A DNA stretch of 64,000 nt from Coriolopsis trogii (taxonomy: Eukaryota; Basidiomycota; Agaricomycetes; Polyporales; Polyporaceae), in assembly GCA_020543525.1 (NCBI GenBank), contig JAHYIO010000036.1:2807465-2871464 (forward strand). The letters are read 5' to 3'. Shown here in pieces: positions 21,739-31,305 of the stretch. The stretch's first letter is position 1; every line of letters starts with the position of its first letter. The translations under genes and the position numbers were made by a program. The notes beneath the pieces are model-generated. The model made no database searches and had not been told where the DNA came from. It was given only the letters and a program-made list of their open reading frames with translations.

Positions 21739-21746
21739 GGCGTACA

Positions 21747-21765
21747 CAGGGGGCAACCAGCCGAG
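21747..21765 (+). repeat. Left terminal inverted repeat of the outer transposon
   Basis: CAGGGGGCAACCAGCCGAG, exact complement of 31279-31297 and adjoining the TSD copy at 21739-21746. Similarity continues inward less perfectly (to ACTCCA at 21775-21780). Confidence 0.85.
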
Positions 21766-23758
21766 AGTCCGGCGACTCCATGTCTGAAAAGTTTAGCGCT
21801 GGACCCCGAACACCACTTGGGGGAGGAGGTCCCCTAGCCGAGATAAGATTACGTGCGCGCTGCATTATCAGTCTATACGAACCGCTTTCTCTCTCCGTTC
21901 AACCACCACCGCCGTCGACGGCGCCCTCTCCCTCTTCAGCTGGACCTGCCGGTCAAGGTCCTGATGCAACTCCTCTATCCCGTCACTACTAGGCACGCCA
22001 AAATCATCCCTCCACTCCTTTGTCACCTCCTCATCCTCAATACCCATCAAGTTCTCTTCGTTCCGGGAGATGTGCATATTGACTACCAGGCTGGCAGGCA
22101 CATCAGGTACGTTCCCGGCTTCATCAGCATGGCCGAGTAGATGGTGTAGTGCGTTGTACTTCCAAATGGTCGCCGGTTGGCCTGGGGAGATCGGGGGGCA
22201 TAGTGGACAATGGATGGGCACGTTGGTACATGGCGTGTTGGGAGATACTTTACGTGCTGCGGTGTACGACATGGATGTATGGTGATAGGGGCAGCTGGAA
22301 GCAATCTTGTATGAGTCTTTAGTCTTCGTTAATCGTGTTATACACCCGTCTTCTCCACAGAAGCCGCATGGTTCAAGCCCGATCTAGATGCTCACCGTCA
22401 GTGCTAAACATGTTGTCCAACAATTCCCGGTAGTTACCTCATGCAGAAGCATTCTTTCATCACTGACACCTCTCATTGCATATAGGATGTGGCCGCCAAC
22501 ATGATTTCGCATTCGGGCGAGCTGCATGGTCTCTCCGCACAGGAGGCACCCGACAGAGGACTTCGGAGCACGCTTCTCTAGAGTGAGTTGCGGCGGAATG
22601 TCTGTGATTTCCAGTACGCTGACTACACCTTGATATGAGCAGTCTGTCAGGCTGTATATTTGCGATGCATACCTTGCTTGTCCATGTACGGTAAGCCATC
22701 AACTTGTGAGATGGATGGCAGAAGTTCAATGTTGAAGGCAATGTCAGCTATTTCTGGCCCGAGAGCGTCCCACGCCATATCAAGACATTCACGAAGCTGG
22801 TCACCCGAAAGTGACCATGTAACCTCAGCAACGGACCGGAGGAACGTATCAGATGATCCAGGCGCGTGTTCGCGAGGTGTCGGAGACTCGATGATGGTAG
22901 GAGCAAGAGGGTATAAGAGATGTGCAGGAACACTCAAGGTATGTTGCTGCCGCCGTGTGTTTGTCTTTGTGCCTGCAGTGAACTGAGCGTATGAGTGATT
23001 CCACAGCCACAGCGTCTCTGTTCCACTTGAGAGCGCATCTGTACTTCGAAGCTTGAGGATTTGGACGGTCACGGTTGTGTGCGAACCGTGCGGTGCCTCA
23101 AGTTGTGTGACCTCGATAGCAGTTGCTCGGCGGGTGCGTGCCTTCTCTCCTCTCGTTTCAAACTCCAAGATTTCCGCGACGGCCAGACAGATACGCGAGT
23201 CGACTCGGACTAGGAGAGCGGCGAGGTCCCCTGCCTTGACGAGATCGACACCAGGGGTGAGATCCTGAGTGTTGAAGCGATCAAACTTGCTGCCATGTAG
23301 ATCTTCGATTGTGACACCTCTCGAACGCAATGTACGCATCGTGACCTTGCGGGAACGCTTCGCGGTGAGTACAATAGCAACGACCGAGGCTTTGAGGTAT
23401 TTCTTCCCTTCAACGACCAACCACTTGTCTTCAGAGAACTGTGACGGAACGCCATGGGCACCGGGGATCTGCGTTGTCTGGGAGGGTAAGAAGTCATCGA
23501 TGGCTAACCCTTCAGGTCGATCATCAGGCTCTCCATCGTCCTCTTCATATTCGTCGGGAACAGCCACTGGCAGCGATGAAGCCTGCGTTGGCAGGCAGTT
23601 GGACACGGGTTCAGCCGGACCGGATGGGGAACACATGTCCGAGCAGCGGTCTCGAAGTGCAGATCCGACCTCAGGCTCCTCCGTCCTTGCATCGTCCGGA
23701 TCATACTGGACACCAACATAGTCACCCTCTGGTCGAAGAAGGTCACAGTCTGTGTGCG

Positions 23759-23766
23759 TGGATAAC
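23759..23766. repeat. Left target-site duplication of the hAT
   Basis: TGGATAAC, identical to 28044-28051. Eight bases is the canonical hAT target duplication. Both copies are unmutated. Confidence 0.9.
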
Positions 23767-23777
23767 TAGTGATCGAA

Positions 23778-23990
23778 AGTCAGGTCAGAAGACCGGTCGT
23801 GACCGTTCTAATGACCGGACATAACCGGTAAATGACCTGACCTTGACCGCAAATTTTGCGGTCATGCTATAGGTCAAGTTCCGGTCATTGACAATGGGAT
23901 ATTTTGTCTGACCGGTCATGACCGGCTATGACCGGTTTATGACCGATATTTCTAACCGGTTTTAACCGGTTATCGACCGGTTATTCATGT
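23778..23990. repeat. Left subterminal GACCGGT repeats of the hAT
   Basis: About a dozen overlapping copies of GACCGGT and ATGACCGG in both orientations, locally palindromic (GACCGGTCATGACCGG). Such arrays are the usual binding sites of hAT transposases. A similar array fills 27825-28036. Confidence 0.8.
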
Positions 23991-24173
23991 ACTTGATTGG
24001 ACATTGGGCGGGCGGACCATCGCAAGCGCCAGACAAAACTGTGTAGATTATACCAATTTTGGCCTAAATGCAAACAAACAAACAAACTATGCTTTGCGCG
24101 ACTGCAAAATTCTCCCACTGTCTTCGACCCTGTGCGTCTTCCGTGCTTCTTTTCTCATCGGTCAAAGCTACAT

Positions 24174-27100
24174 ATGGCGAACCGGACATCCACGAGCCGT
24201 GCTATACAAAAAGCTTCGGGAGCAATCAAGACATCAGCCGGGGGCGGCACAACAAGTACGGTGCACGCAAAGCGCAATCGCGAGGAGTCCTCCGATGAGA
24301 GTTCGGGAAATGAAGCACATCCGGCGAAGAAGAAACCTGGTACTGCACCCGCTGCTAAAGTAGTAGCGGGTGTTAGACGCTCCGACCGGCATCGACGCAA
24401 GTCACGTAAGGCGATAGAGTCCACGTCGGGGGACATTGTCTGGGACGACGAGGACAGAGAGGAACAGGAATAGGAGAAAGATGAGGAGAGCAGGGTGGGT
24501 GAAGGAGAGGATGGCGAGGCAGTGGAGGACGGTGGCGAACGGAGTGACAGTCCTATTGTGGTATGTGGAACCATGTTAGCAGAGGTGGGAGTACGCATTT
24601 GAATATGACTTACAATGATAGATACCGAGTGAATCGGATGACTCGGACGTTGATGGGGTCGTTGGCAAGCTTGTGAGACGAAGGACGAAAGCGGAGATGA
24701 CAGCCGACTTGTTGACGATCTTCACGGCTCGAGAGAAAGTGCATTTTGAAGGTGAGGGGGAAGTTAAGGGGCGATGGTGTAAAATCTGTCGGTAAGTACA
24801 TCAGCACTTGGCAGGAGAGAGGATGCTATGCTTTAGAAATATGTACTCACGATCATCACAACAGGGAAGACAAGCGAGTGCGCAAGGCCAAGGGCCGACA
24901 CGCTGGTTGGTACCTCGGCCACAACTCAACCTGCCGCGAGCACATCAAGTCGGCGCATTACGAGGAGTATGCAAAGCGGTGTAAAGCCAAGGGAATAGAC
25001 GAGAATAAGCGGTGCGTACCAGATAGAGTGAAAAAGGCGAGGGCAGAAGCGGCGGCAGTGGCGGCGGGGAAGAGAGGAGGGCAGCGCACTCTTGAGTCTC
25101 TGGGCGTACACAAGGTTGCAGCTCCGCCCGATTTCTCAGAGGAAACAATCTTGAAGACGGTCGCCGAACACGTTGTGTGCGGCCAACAGGTGCGTGTATA
25201 TAGTAATCTGCAACTTAATCTCAGCCCCCGATTTAGACGACATAAACTCTAATTACCTTCACAGCCCCTCGCAGTGGCGGGCGAAGTCACTTTCACAAAC
25301 TGTCTCGTGGTCATGCGCCCAGGCACGAAGTGGCGAGAGCTCCCGACGCCTGACAAAGTCAAGACTTACGTTCACAACTCTTTCGTGACCTTTGTGGAGA
25401 CCATAGCATCTGACATCGTGAAGGCTCCTGGGAACACGTCCGGCCTGTTTGATATGTGGACGGCTGCGCACACCTCAAACGCATTCTTCGGTCTGATCCT
25501 GCAATGGATTGACGTCGCGTACGACCACATCACCGGGAACTGGACCTTCACTTACCGCAACGAGGTTGCTGCCTGTCACCAAGTCCTCGGCGACCATGCC
25601 GGTCCCAATCTGGGACGTTACCTCTTGGCTCTTCTCGACCGTGCCGGGGTCACGTCGAAATCTCTCTGCAAGGTACGTATCCTCCTCCCCCCCACCCTCC
25701 CAACCAGTCCCCCTCTTTGTACACACGCCCCCGACCGGTCCTCACTGCGCACGCCTCGCTCCCCTGCCTCTCAGCTTGGACATCTCACAACCGACAACGC
25801 AACAAACAACTCCGCTGGCGTGAAGGAGTTAGAACGGCGCCTCAGGTTGAGGAACATCCTACCGGACAATTGGGTCACATCGGAACGGCTTCTCGGGTGC
25901 GCGCACTCATTGTCTCACCTGTATTCTCATGCTAACTGCTCTATTCTCTAGCTGCTTTGGACACATCGTCGAGCTAGCTATCAATGACTTCATGGATACG
26001 ATCACAGACACGAAGATAGCGGAGTCACGAGAAGAAGTCTGGAACTTCGACCCGCAAGCACGATCAGAGCGTACGGACCTGATAGCGATGGTGCGCACCT
26101 TGGCAGTGAAGGTACGCATGTCTGTACACCTGTGTCCGGTCCTCCGTCTCCGTGGTGGTATGCAGATCTTCGTAAGACGTTGACCAGCAAGACCATTCAC
26201 ATCCGAAATGTAGACGTCTGGCTTGATATGCTAACGTTTTGGTATTCCAGATTCAGGCTTCGTCCCAGCGCAAGGAGCTTTTCCATTCCCTACAGAAGGA
26301 GGCAGGAATCAACCCACCGCTTGTCATCCCCCTTCATAGCAATGTGCGCTGGGGCAGCGCCCATAATATGTTGTTACGTGCGTACGAGCTTCGTGAGGTA
26401 CGCGATCATCTCTTCTGCGTCCCACCTAGCAGCTAATTGAACCTCGACGGTCCTAGCATATCGACGCGTTCATCGCTATGGCGGATGTCAAGTTTGGCCC
26501 CATCACGAGGCAGCGTCGCCGCGGCCAGCGCGACAAGAAGATTCCATGGGCGGCCTTCCAGTTCACCAAGGAGCAATGGGAGACGGTTCGGCTGTGCAGC
26601 GAGATACTCACGGTGAGCAGACTCTCCTCCCTGCGCATCAAACTCTGACATGTTCTTTCTTTCCAGGACTCACATCTATACCAGCAAGTATGTTCTACCA
26701 ACCGAGCACCGACCGTGCATAAGGTCATCCCGGTGATGGAGAACCTAGCAACACGGTGGGAGAAGAAGGCGGCCAATGCTGCATACGCTCCCTTTCATCA
26801 CGCACTGAACGCTGCTCTCGCTAAGCTGAATAAGTACTACAAGAAGCTCGATAACGCAGATGCGTACATTCTTGCAATGTGTAAGCTTTTGTTTATGCAC
26901 TGATTCACAATCTCTTACGAACTCCTTTCAGATCTTCATCCGTACTTCAAGCTTAACTATATCAACAACAAGTGGGGAGGAGAGGCTGAGTACCTCAAAG
27001 ACATCGAAGATGGCATACCAGACCCTCGCAATTGGAAGGCCTACGCATCTGACGTAGTTGAGAAGGTGGTAAGTCTGTTCGGTGCTACCTGTCCGTATTA

Positions 27101-27757
27101 CGCTGATGTTTGAAATCTAGCTCGAGTATTACTGGCCGAAGCGCCTGCGTCCAGAGGACTTCACGCCGAAGGAACAGAATGATGAGCACGACAAGGGTAA
27201 ACAGCCGGCTGCGGCCTCTCCGGACATCAATGCTCAGAGTCTCGAGGATGACGAGGATGATTACGACCGTGAGCGGCGCCTTCAGCTTGAGCGCGCTGAG
27301 AGCGATGATGGGTGGAGGTCGGAGATGGCACGTTACACTTCGACACGTGACCTACAGGTCAAGAAGGATGCGGACACTGTTGCTTGGTGGGCGGTGAGTA
27401 TGCCGAACTCCGCTTTGGCTTGAGCGTATACTTACTTGTTCTATTTTGTCTCAGCAACATGCTTCCATCTATCCGACGCATGCACGCATGGCGCTCGATA
27501 TTCTCCCGATCGCAGGGGCGACTGTTGGCGTCGAGTCGCTGTTTTCACACGGTGGACAGGTCCTCACGGACCGTCGCTCACGTCTTGCACCGCAGGTGTT
27601 TGAAGAGCTCCAATGCCTCGAGCATCATTGGAAGCCCACCATCGTGAATTACGCTCGCGAGAACGAGAAGAATGTTGAGTTTATTGAGATAGAGGAGTAC
27701 GAGTATATGGAGATGGAGGACCAGATGCTGAGGGCCGTCGATGACGTTGATGAATAA
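24174..27757 (+). pseudogene. hAT transposase with BED finger, one nonsense codon
   Basis: Twelve exons: 24174-24560, 24622-24791, 24865-25189, 25265-25672, 25775-25896, 25952-26111, 26251-26397, 26457-26612, 26667-26880, 26932-27068, 27121-27393 and 27455-27757, 934 codons in phase. A BED-type zinc finger (GRWCKICR...HNSTCREHIKSAH) is followed by the transposase core. Core motifs are FDMWTAAHTSNAF and LGHLTTDNATNNSA (the two Asp positions) and the C-terminal dimerisation region WWA/QHASIYPTHARMALDILP with GVESLFSHGG (catalytic Glu). Codon 100 is TAG (24471-24473) inside an acidic stretch that continues open in the same frame for 29 codons to the splice site. A downstream ATG in exon 2 (near 24697) would keep the zinc finger and core, so activity is not excluded. 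Confidence 0.85.
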
Positions 27758-27824
27758 TTAGATGTTATACGTACATTATAGTTCCACGATGGTGTGCTTT
27801 TATGTGTTACTATATGTGTGATTG

Positions 27825-28036
27825 ACCAGTCATGACCGGTTTATAACTGGTCATAACCGGTCATGACCGCTGTTCAGTCATGACCGGTCATAACTGATGA
27901 CCGGACCGTCGGTCATGTCAGGTCATGCAATGACTGATTGTTCGGTCCAGTCAGACAAAACCGAACCGGTCAGGTCCAGGTCCGGTCACCGGTCATTGTC
28001 CAGAGGGGCCAATGACCGGACTTGACCGGACTTTTA
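27825..28036. repeat. Right subterminal GACCGGT repeats of the hAT
   Basis: Counterpart of the array at 23778-23990, with repeated ATGACCGGT and TAACTGGTCAT variants just inside the right terminus. Confidence 0.8.
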
Positions 28037-28043
28037 ATCACTA

Positions 28044-28051
28044 TGGATAAC
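28044..28051. repeat. Right target-site duplication of the hAT
   Basis: TGGATAAC, identical to 23759-23766. Removing the element plus one copy restores the host reading frame. Confidence 0.9.
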
Positions 28052-31000
28052 TTGTTCCAGTGGTTGGTGACTGTCTCGTTGCTGTAATATGCCTTCAGAA
28101 GCCGGTAAGCTTCCTCCCGTCCACGTGTCCATTCAGCTGTCAACTCAACATCTCCAACGTGTACGTTGCCTACCCAGGACCGGGGATTCACATGATCAAC
28201 ACCTAAAGCGTCCTTCAGAGCCAGACGTCGATGACCACGGTCCAAATCGGGGTTCCTCTCGAAGACGCTCTGGATGAGAGCGCCTGTGGCAAGCTTTTCG
28301 GAAAGCTGCAGGATATCGAAGTTACGGCTGTGGTCCTGAGTGCGGCAGTCACTGAAGACACCTTCGAGGCGGTCTGTGCCCTCGAGAATGATATAGAATG
28401 GTAGATCCTTGTTTACAAGCTGGAGACGAGCAATGGTGATGACGATATTCTTGACGATGGCCTGTGAATCTGCGAAGAGTGCACCCGTGATAGATCGTGT
28501 GTGATGTTGAGTCCAGAGGAAAGAAACGAGGTGAGCATATTTGATGAGAGATCGGAGCTGCTCTGATAGAGACATAGTGACAGAAATGAAGGGTAGAGTG
28601 AAGGATCCGAGGACATGAGCAAGGAATGAGAGCATGCGCTGCCGGTGGTGTGCGGATGGAAGGGAAGGGATGGCGCTGTCGCTCTCAAGCTTCAGGAGGG
28701 TCTGTATAAGGTTCACAGCTTTGGGAACATTCTGCTTGTCCGCGGGATCGAGTAGCTGACGTGCCTTCTCCGTGTCCATGCCGGGGAGGGTTTTCAGAAG
28801 TGCAAAAACATCATGGCATGTGAGAAGTGTGTCTGATATCTGCACACCCTTTGGATTTCGAATGAGCGTTGCAAATCCTGTCCGTAAGTCAACCTCTTGT
28901 GTGTACCACCTCGGAGAGCATACCTGCTTATGTTTGATTACATGCTTAGGATCGCATGTTCCGCATAGTCCATCGACGCCAGTATATGTGTTAAGACCTG
29001 TCAGCGGCACAAGGAGCTGTCCGAGAGAAGACGACGGGGAAATTGGCTCGCGCATGCATAGAATAAACTTAGCACGGCGGAACGATGCCTCTCCGTCAGT
29101 CGCAATGGCCCATATGGGTCCATGAGTCGCCTCTCCATGAGGATGGGTCTTCCATGCATCGAGCACAATCCTGAGCCAAGCGACCATCTCCTCCCCCGTT
29201 TCTGCCTTGCATGACGGAGAAACCAGTAGAGGGACAGGGGTATAGTGTTCCGTCTGAGCATACGGGGCGACGGCAACCACAGTTCCATCCTGTCCGTAGT
29301 GCGCAGAGGTATTTGTTGAGAACGTATCATTGTCGACCTCTTGGGTGCGTTCTCGAGGGTGAAGCGTGGCCTCAATGTTCAGAATGTCTTTGAAAGTGGT
29401 CACCTTCTTCGGAATACCATCTGAATGCTCACGGCAGACACCGAGAATGGTGTTATCTTCAGCACGGTACCGGCAGCGACCCTCAAGTGCAAGTCCATCG
29501 ATTTGCATCACGTTCCCTGCAACATGGACTGAGAATGGATCGGGGGACTGTATGAGCATCGGTGGTTTGAGGTCAGGGTGAAACAGGGCTGAGATATTTG
29601 TATGGATCTCTTCGGACACGGGCCTGCTGAGACAGGGAATCAGGCGAGGGATCTGGAGGCGTCGGGCGAGAGTCGAAGCAGATGCAAAGCCATGGGATTG
29701 TTGTAGAGCAAAGAGCAGGCGCGGACCTCCGAGAGCCTTTGCCAGAAATGCGATCTGGAGGTCGCGATCTGAGAATCCTTTACCACGGGGAGTGTAGAGT
29801 CCTCGGAGTGAGTCCTCAATCCGGGAGATGAGCGTCTTTGGACTGGCTCCTTTCCGGAGAGCGACTTCGAGAAGATCACGAAGACGCTTTACATCATGCG
29901 TTGCGAGAAGCATTGTGAGCCGCTGGTGGTCATGAACCTTCGCTCGCAACCTTGAAAGCTTATGACCTGCATTGCGGTACTATAGACAATAAAATGATTC
30001 AGGGCCCAGTGGTACTAGAGCAGCCCTACAATGAGACAAGAGTACCTTGAGACGAAGTTGTCGGTACTGGCCAACTACTTTTTGCAGGGCTACGAGGATC
30101 TGGGCATGTGTCAGGGCCCAGTGTTGCGTGTGAAGAGGAGCTTCTTTCGCGCGTTCTATCGCAATCTTCATCTTTGTTGAATGTGCAATTTGGCTACAGG
30201 CAACGCATGGTCCAGACAAGTGAGGTGGGAGAACCAAGTGACAATTGAATGACCGGAGACGGAGCCACCTCTCGTTCTGAAATCCAACAGGTTCCCAAGG
30301 GAAATCGTGTTTGAGGTGCCGGTGATATGGGTACGTACTCCAGATAGAACCAGGGGTCCATTCTACCAGTGCTCCAGGACATGCATGCATGCGATATGGC
30401 GATCCATTCTATTCCCCAATGTGCAAGACAGAAATACAATACATCAAGTAGTACACACCTCTACTGCACTCGTGTTATGCATCCCAACTACACCTACATC
30501 GGATCCTGAGACTGCCGGCACGTCTCCTGACATTTGCGGGCTAGTGTTGCCACTAACCAGAGGAGGGGGTGTCGGAGAATTGTTTGAAGAACGAGATAGA
30601 GGGGAATCGGTCGGCATAGAAAAGTCAGAAGTAGTGGGAAGATGCGGAGATGCCGCGGCCGATGCGTACGGCTGGCTGGTAGGGACCAATGAGGAGCCGA
30701 TAGAAGCGCGAGCTTGTGAAACTTGTTGCCGTAACCTCTGTCGAGCTTGCTTATTGACTCGATCCTTACAGGAGTTGGAATCGCGGTGGCGCAGGAAGCT
30801 TGCGGGGTGGCCATTCTCATTGAGGGAGATGGTGCGGCCACAGAGATCACAGTCAATAACATGCGTGCGAATATCCCATCGTGTTTGCAGAACGCATCCG
30901 TCAGTGAGCTCGATGTTCTTTGGTTTCTTCTGCTCTTCGCTCGGAGCGGCGGGGGGCATTATGGTGTGAGGAGGCTCGATACATGCATATCTGATGCTTG

Positions 31001-31278
31001 GAGTCCGATATAAGCAGTCCCAATTAGGCAATTTCAGGCGCTCACGTGGTGCTCAGGTATACGATCGGACATGGGGCACAGAGTTGCTACTTGTTCGCCT
31101 CAAAAACAGTCACGGATGGTTTGGATATGTCCTCAAAATATATTCTCCAAGTTTCGTACAGTTTCATAGACATATGAACTCACTATGGGAGAATCACTGA
31201 AAATCGAGGGAAAAGTTCAAACTGGGACCCCGTACACCACTTTGGGGGGGAGGAGGTGGCACTTGGAGTCAGCGCTCG

Positions 31279-31297
31279 CTCGGCTGGTTGCCCCCTG
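31279..31297 (-). repeat. Right terminal inverted repeat of the outer transposon
   Basis: CTCGGCTGGTTGCCCCCTG, exact complement of 21747-21765 and followed directly by the TSD copy GGCGTACA at 31298-31305. Confidence 0.85.
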
Positions 31298-31305
31298 GGC
31301 GTACA

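Follow-up and report, generated by a model that had tools for sequence, protein, structure and literature searches.

A putative P-superfamily transposon lineage with zinc-finger-like clusters in Coriolopsis trogii and other mushrooms

We analysed a stretch of 64,000 nucleotides from the Agaricomycete Coriolopsis trogii (contig JAHYIO010000036.1 of assembly GCA_020543525.1), hereafter the 64-kb window, in which a large gene is enclosed by terminal inverted repeats (TIRs). The element holding this gene, at 21747-31297, is very probably a cut-and-paste DNA transposon of the P-superfamily type, and we are equally confident that the encoded transposase is of the P type. Our best reading is that it represents a deep P-superfamily lineage of mushrooms, which has zinc fingers where animals have the THAP domain and which carries extra C-terminal domains. 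The coordinates of all features are collected in Table 1.

Element ends, copies and mobility

The whole window was scanned for exact 8-bp target site duplications (TSDs) combined with exact TIRs of at least 8 bp, at a spacing of 1-15 kb. The sole pair that passed corresponds to the ends of the element, which confirmed the perfect 19-bp TIRs and the perfect 8-bp TSD proposed in the initial annotation. Twenty mononucleotide-shuffled windows yielded 4 pairs in total at a TIR length of 8, the length covered by this control, and by extrapolation a TIR of 19 bp is therefore far beyond chance. Both ends also harbour a subterminal repeat of 44 bp, a candidate transposase-binding region. The two repeats have the same direct orientation and are not inverted.

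The host assembly consists of 38.8 Mb in 39 contigs, and a second copy of the element, with identical TIRs and a perfect TSD of its own, was found on contig C36. Compared by piece, the two copies are 98.4-99.2% identical (60 differences in 5,274 bases compared), and their flanks do not match. In addition, a sister-branch element is present on contig C5, the gene of which shares 35% protein identity with the window element in the core. When the surroundings of this gene were scanned, allowing at most one mismatch in 8 for the TSD and at most four in 14 for the TIR, only one solution was obtained, and its TIR and TSD are perfect. Perfect 8-bp TSDs together with TIRs were thus observed in all three elements examined, all of them in a single genome. 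Because the near-identical copy has a different 8-bp TSD and the distant C5 element has TIRs and a TSD of its own, these elements form a mobile family, and the two near-identical copies show that the element has multiplied recently. A search with the left flanks revealed no empty site of the outer element. That the window element is a real transposon is nearly certain.

An ordinary host gene could also be situated between chance inverted repeats, or could have been picked up by a non-autonomous element. In agreement with this, the gene is large, has several exons, encodes zinc fingers and has no Pfam transposase domain above cut-off. However, it fills two near-identical elements, the 35%-identical gene fills a third one with other TIRs, and its product is predicted to have an RNase H fold with a D-D-E set of residues. 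For this genome the host-gene explanation is refuted by the three elements, and we give it hardly any probability.

The window copy is dead. It was killed by a nested hAT transposon that interrupts exon 3 and in which the domain Dimer_Tnp_hAT (PF05699) was detected at 27455-27754 (E = 1.5e-10). The ends of this insert read TAGTGATCGAAAGTC and TAGTGATTAAAAGTC, and it contains subterminal repeats of the GACCGGTCATGACC type. Its size subtracted, the outer element measures about 5.3 kb. The C36 copy lacks the nested hAT, and the insertion site is empty there; elsewhere in that copy a Copia long terminal repeat (LTR) retrotransposon is inserted (584-bp LTRs, 5-bp TSD CTACG), and one in-frame TGA is present. 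Neither near-identical copy is therefore intact. The differences between them comprise 58 transitions and 2 transversions, and 45 of the 60 are located at CpG; in 34 cases the window copy has CpG and the C36 copy TG or CA, and in 10 cases the reverse was observed. This bias would be the mark of methylated-cytosine decay, and it suggests that the C36 copy was subject to cytosine methylation and has been decaying.

Predicted core fold and active site

A structure was modelled for a core of 645 amino acids from the first part of exon 3, and the conservation of its residues was counted over the non-gap rows of a core alignment of 73 rows. The core is predicted to adopt an RNase H fold, the lack of which would have spoken against the initial annotation, and its best structural match is the P element transposase, over 385 residues. 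This agrees with the likeness to P/THAP9 transposases suggested by the initial annotation. Between strand beta5 and helix alpha4 the model contains a mostly helical insertion domain with the P fold. In the P transposase a helix-turn-helix domain precedes the RNase H domain; as its possible counterpart, model helices 71-132 lie inside the aligned range, which starts at P residue 155 and of which only the end points are known.

The predicted active site is formed by D161, D295 and E539. Earlier, the motifs ATDGEASF, GTCDPKHVIK and DRLEGVFSDCR had been taken for the acidic triad. The first and the last of these indeed hold the predicted second aspartate and the glutamate, but DPKH in the second represents the D(2)H motif as defined for the P transposase (PMC8230255), and the true first aspartate had been missed. 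Residue D536 precedes the glutamate by three positions, which is the spacing between D528 and E531 of the P transposase, where D528 is described as contacting guanosine triphosphate (GTP) (PMC7776569).

Table 1. Features of the putative P-type element of C. trogii and of its relatives in the same genome; positions refer to the window unless a contig is named, and residues to the core model
Feature	Position	Strand	Remarks
Putative P-type element	21747-31297, 9,551 bp		TIR-to-TIR span
Left TSD GGCGTACA	21739-21746	.	same letters as 31298-31305, 8/8
Right TSD GGCGTACA	31298-31305	.	perfect 8-bp duplicate of left TSD
Left TIR CAGGGGGCAACCAGCCGAG	21747-21765	+	19 bp, perfect; same in C36 copy
Right TIR	31279-31297	-	19 bp, perfect inverted match to left TIR
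Left subterminal 44-bp repeat	21786-21829	+	80% identity to right repeat
Right subterminal 44-bp repeat	31210-31253	+	80% identity to left repeat
Exon 1	30567-30959	-	start codon 30957-30959; N-terminal C2HC finger; P0160 residues 1-151
Exon 2	30046-30417, 5' end approximate	-	second N-terminal Cys/His cluster, helical linker; P0137 from residue 82
Intron	29980-30045, 66 bp	-	GT..AG, read by eye
Exon 3, first part	28044-29979	-	helical N-terminal part, RNase H domain, helical insertion domain (predicted)
Exon 3, second part	22671-23766, 3' end approximate	-	acidic linker, C-terminal beta-rich domain (predicted)
Exon 4	22460-22635, 5' and 3' ends approximate	-	C-terminal zinc cluster 1, CxxC...H...H
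Exon 5	21868-22383	-	C-terminal zinc clusters 2 and 3, stop
Predicted catalytic Asp 1, D161 (QIDGLALEG)	29497-29499	-	strand beta1 (156-165); D in 71/71 non-gap rows of 73
Predicted catalytic Asp 2, D295 (ATDGEASF)	29095-29097	-	just after beta4 (strand 289-294); D in 73/73
D(2)H motif DPKH, D343-H346	28942-28953	-	just after beta5 (strand 339-342); D and H in 73/73
Predicted catalytic Glu, E539 (DRLEGVF)	28363-28365	-	helix alpha4 (536-547); E in 68/68 non-gap rows of 73
D536	28372-28374	-	D in 68/68 non-gap rows of 73
Nested hAT transposon	23767-28043, 4,277 bp	+ (own transposase)	interrupts exon 3
TSD of nested hAT, TGGATAAC	23759-23766 and 28044-28051
Second copy	C36:1108780-1120553		same TIRs as window copy; own perfect 8-bp TSD TGTCGCCT
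Sister-branch element	contig C5, L006:2704-8818		perfect 17-bp TIR CAAGGGGGTCGCGGGAT, perfect TSD ACAAGACC

Zinc-finger clusters and extent of the family

The gene lies between the TIRs on the minus strand. It extends over about five exons, from an ATG at 30959 to a stop at 21868, and its span is covered jointly by six homologues in tblastn. The 3' boundary of exon 1 lies between about 30417 and 30567. A frame of 1530 residues had been annotated at first. This length is consistent with that of the homologues (1,271-1,640 amino acids in 29 of the 33 in alignment A2), but in the window the frame is not contiguous, as it is split by the nested hAT.

Metal-ligand columns were regarded as conserved when at least 80% of the non-gap rows in alignment A2, which comprises these 33 homologues, had Cys or His. 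An N-terminal C-C-H-C set was found in 23/23, 22/22, 27/27 and 19/23 rows, a second set, C-H-C-C-C, in 27 to 29 of 28 to 30 rows, and the columns of three C-terminal Cys/His clusters in 22 to 29 of 24 to 29 rows. The N-terminal C2HC finger and the C-terminal clusters that had been noticed in the window are thus present and conserved across homologues. Moreover, the Pfam model zf_C2HC_14 matched six of the 33 members (best E = 0.00076). The C-terminal beta domain and the three zinc clusters would be an addition to a P-type core. The beta-rich domain (22650-23765; model residues 175-353) is confidently predicted and conserved in the family; no solved structure matches it clearly.

A first search retrieved 118 related proteins, and a second one, for which the window core was aligned with 72 of these, retrieved at least 209. 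With the C5 core at least 405 proteins were found; 120 of the 209 and 120 of the 405 matches were listed, and the two sets may overlap. The closest listed proteins, from the polypores Polyporus, Daedaleopsis, Lenzites and Trametes, are 60-65% identical to the query. All named hosts among the matches listed are Agaricomycetes, and many rows are without a named source. Only one protein among the matches listed has a Pfam domain, namely P0174 of Antrodiella citrinella, a fusion with an oxidoreductase, and none of the 120 listed matches of the C5 branch bears a Pfam label. The gene model of P0174 joins the transposase to a GMC oxidoreductase, either as an artefact or by capture. One scan each of viral contigs and of prokaryotic contigs found no relatives. 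Across mushrooms, the coding capacity is conserved. The initial proposal, by which a whole family of hypothetical proteins in basidiomycetes would be transposases, is supported for the two branches found, with TIRs examined in one genome.

Relation to known transposons and significance

The P element of Drosophila makes an 8-bp TSD. In its transposase a D(2)H motif follows beta5, and a large insertion domain, for the most part helical, separates beta5 from alpha4; the mushroom protein has the same motif and, in the model, such a domain. As described for the solved structures (PDB 6p5a, 6pe2), the two systems also have in common the core fold, predicted for the mushroom protein over the 385 residues, the positions of D-D-E, and TIRs (PMC7776569, PMC8230255). 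In contrast to Drosophila P, the mushroom protein lacks a THAP domain, in place of which it has a C2HC finger and another Cys/His cluster. It also has an additional beta domain with three zinc clusters at the C-terminus, and 134 residues between the first and the second aspartate, compared to 73 in Drosophila P. Furthermore, no significant sequence similarity between the two was found, and the GTP contacts are matched only in part.

Several observations weigh against an assignment to the P superfamily. Sequence searches did not connect the family with the P transposase at a significant level. No transposase was among the results of four PDB sequence searches, in which the best match was a chain named THR2 (E = 0.017). 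The Pfam TNP-like RNase H model PF21787 matched two of the 33 members, at best with E = 0.02, as well as the C5 element (E = 0.26), each time below the cut-off of 24.6 bits. The Pfam model zf-BED, a finger that occurs in hAT proteins, was touched in one of the 33 members (E = 0.0048). No THAP domain was detected at E <= 1 in six pieces of the window or at E <= 0.1 in the 33 members, in accordance with the initial description of a C2HC finger in its place. THAP is described as a domain found in animals only (PMC7776569), and its lack therefore excludes the narrow animal P/THAP9 family, not the P superfamily. Among the eight GTP contacts of P (K385, K400, V401, S409, F443, D444, N447 and D528), only D528 is clearly matched, by D536, and N417-V418 may be the counterpart of K400-V401. 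Because this match is partial, GTP use by the mushroom family is a guess. In 55 of 60 members of the sister branch, a gap occupies the column of the first aspartate. Finally, the TIR and TSD evidence comes from three elements of one genome, both near-identical copies are damaged, and transposase activity is a prediction.

Alternatively, the family could be a separate superfamily related to P as a sister (and likewise to RAG/Transib and hAT), which shares the RNase H core and the helical insertion domain and split too early to be called P. Both an RNase H core and a helical insertion domain are also found in hAT (Hermes) and Transib/RAG1. This possibility is favoured by the lack of significant similarity to the solved P transposase or the Pfam P model, by N- and C-terminal domains that differ from those of P, and by the incompletely matched GTP contacts. 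The closest fold is nevertheless that of P itself, and we regard a separate superfamily as unlikely.

Much less probable still is membership in hAT or in KDZ (Kyakuja, Dileera, Zisupton), which are abundant in mushrooms and have 8-bp TSDs. Pfam includes KDZ models, and neither these nor the associated cysteine-cluster models gave a match at E <= 0.1 in the 33 members; the best fold is that of P. Likewise, the Pfam hAT dimerisation domain was not detected in the 33 members at E <= 0.1, while a search of that library does detect it in the nested hAT. On the other hand, besides the zf-BED match, the 8-bp TSD of the mushroom element is not specific to P, being made by Zisupton and usually by hAT as well (PMC12730594), and fungal KDZ elements are likewise large DNA transposons of mushrooms. 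In Marasmius oreades, KDZ and Plavaka are reported to account for about half of the fraction that consists of DNA elements (PMC8290104).

We thus favour a P-type transposon, for which the following mechanism is proposed. The N-terminal zinc fingers and the helical domain would bind the element ends, possibly at the subterminal 44-bp repeats. The active site of D161, D295 and E539 would then cut these ends with two metal ions, and strand transfer at positions staggered by 8 bp would result in the 8-bp TSD. Like that of the P transposase, the insertion domain may use GTP.

Rusts belong to the Pucciniomycotina, whereas the named hosts of the mushroom family are Agaricomycetes. As described, the rust P elements share with the mushroom element a basidiomycete host and an 8-bp TSD. 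Since such P-superfamily elements with 8-bp TSDs have already been reported from rust fungi (Repbase P-1_PSt, P-1_MLP and P-2_MLP; PMC3164196), the novelty is at the level of the family or lineage. The new transposon family claimed at the outset therefore stands at that level, but not as the first report of the superfamily with such TSDs. What is new is a putative P-type lineage in mushrooms, distinguished by zinc-finger and C-terminal domains of its own. The main text of a 2025 survey of fungal DNA transposons by Kojima contains neither 'P element' nor 'P superfamily' (PMC12730594), and a literature search, with Repbase outside its scope, found no P elements in mushrooms in the sources it covered.

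We consider it fairly probable that mushrooms harbour an unrecognised deep P-type branch with at least two sub-branches, both carrying N- and C-terminal zinc-finger-like clusters, in which zinc fingers replace THAP for DNA recognition. The first sub-branch would have a new C-terminal beta domain, and the branch would comprise several hundred 'hypothetical protein' clusters and offer a second, independent system for testing GTP-dependent transposition. Unlabelled mushroom proteins, at least 209 in one branch and at least 405 in the other with possible overlap, could then be reclassified as transposases, which would alter, for Agaricomycete genomes, both the number of genes counted and the repeat libraries. 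Among transposases, that of the P element is described as the only one to bind GTP as a cofactor (PMC7776569). With a distant relative that has the same core and possibly altered contacts, the origin of this cofactor and the need for it would become testable, and the P core would not be tied to THAP.

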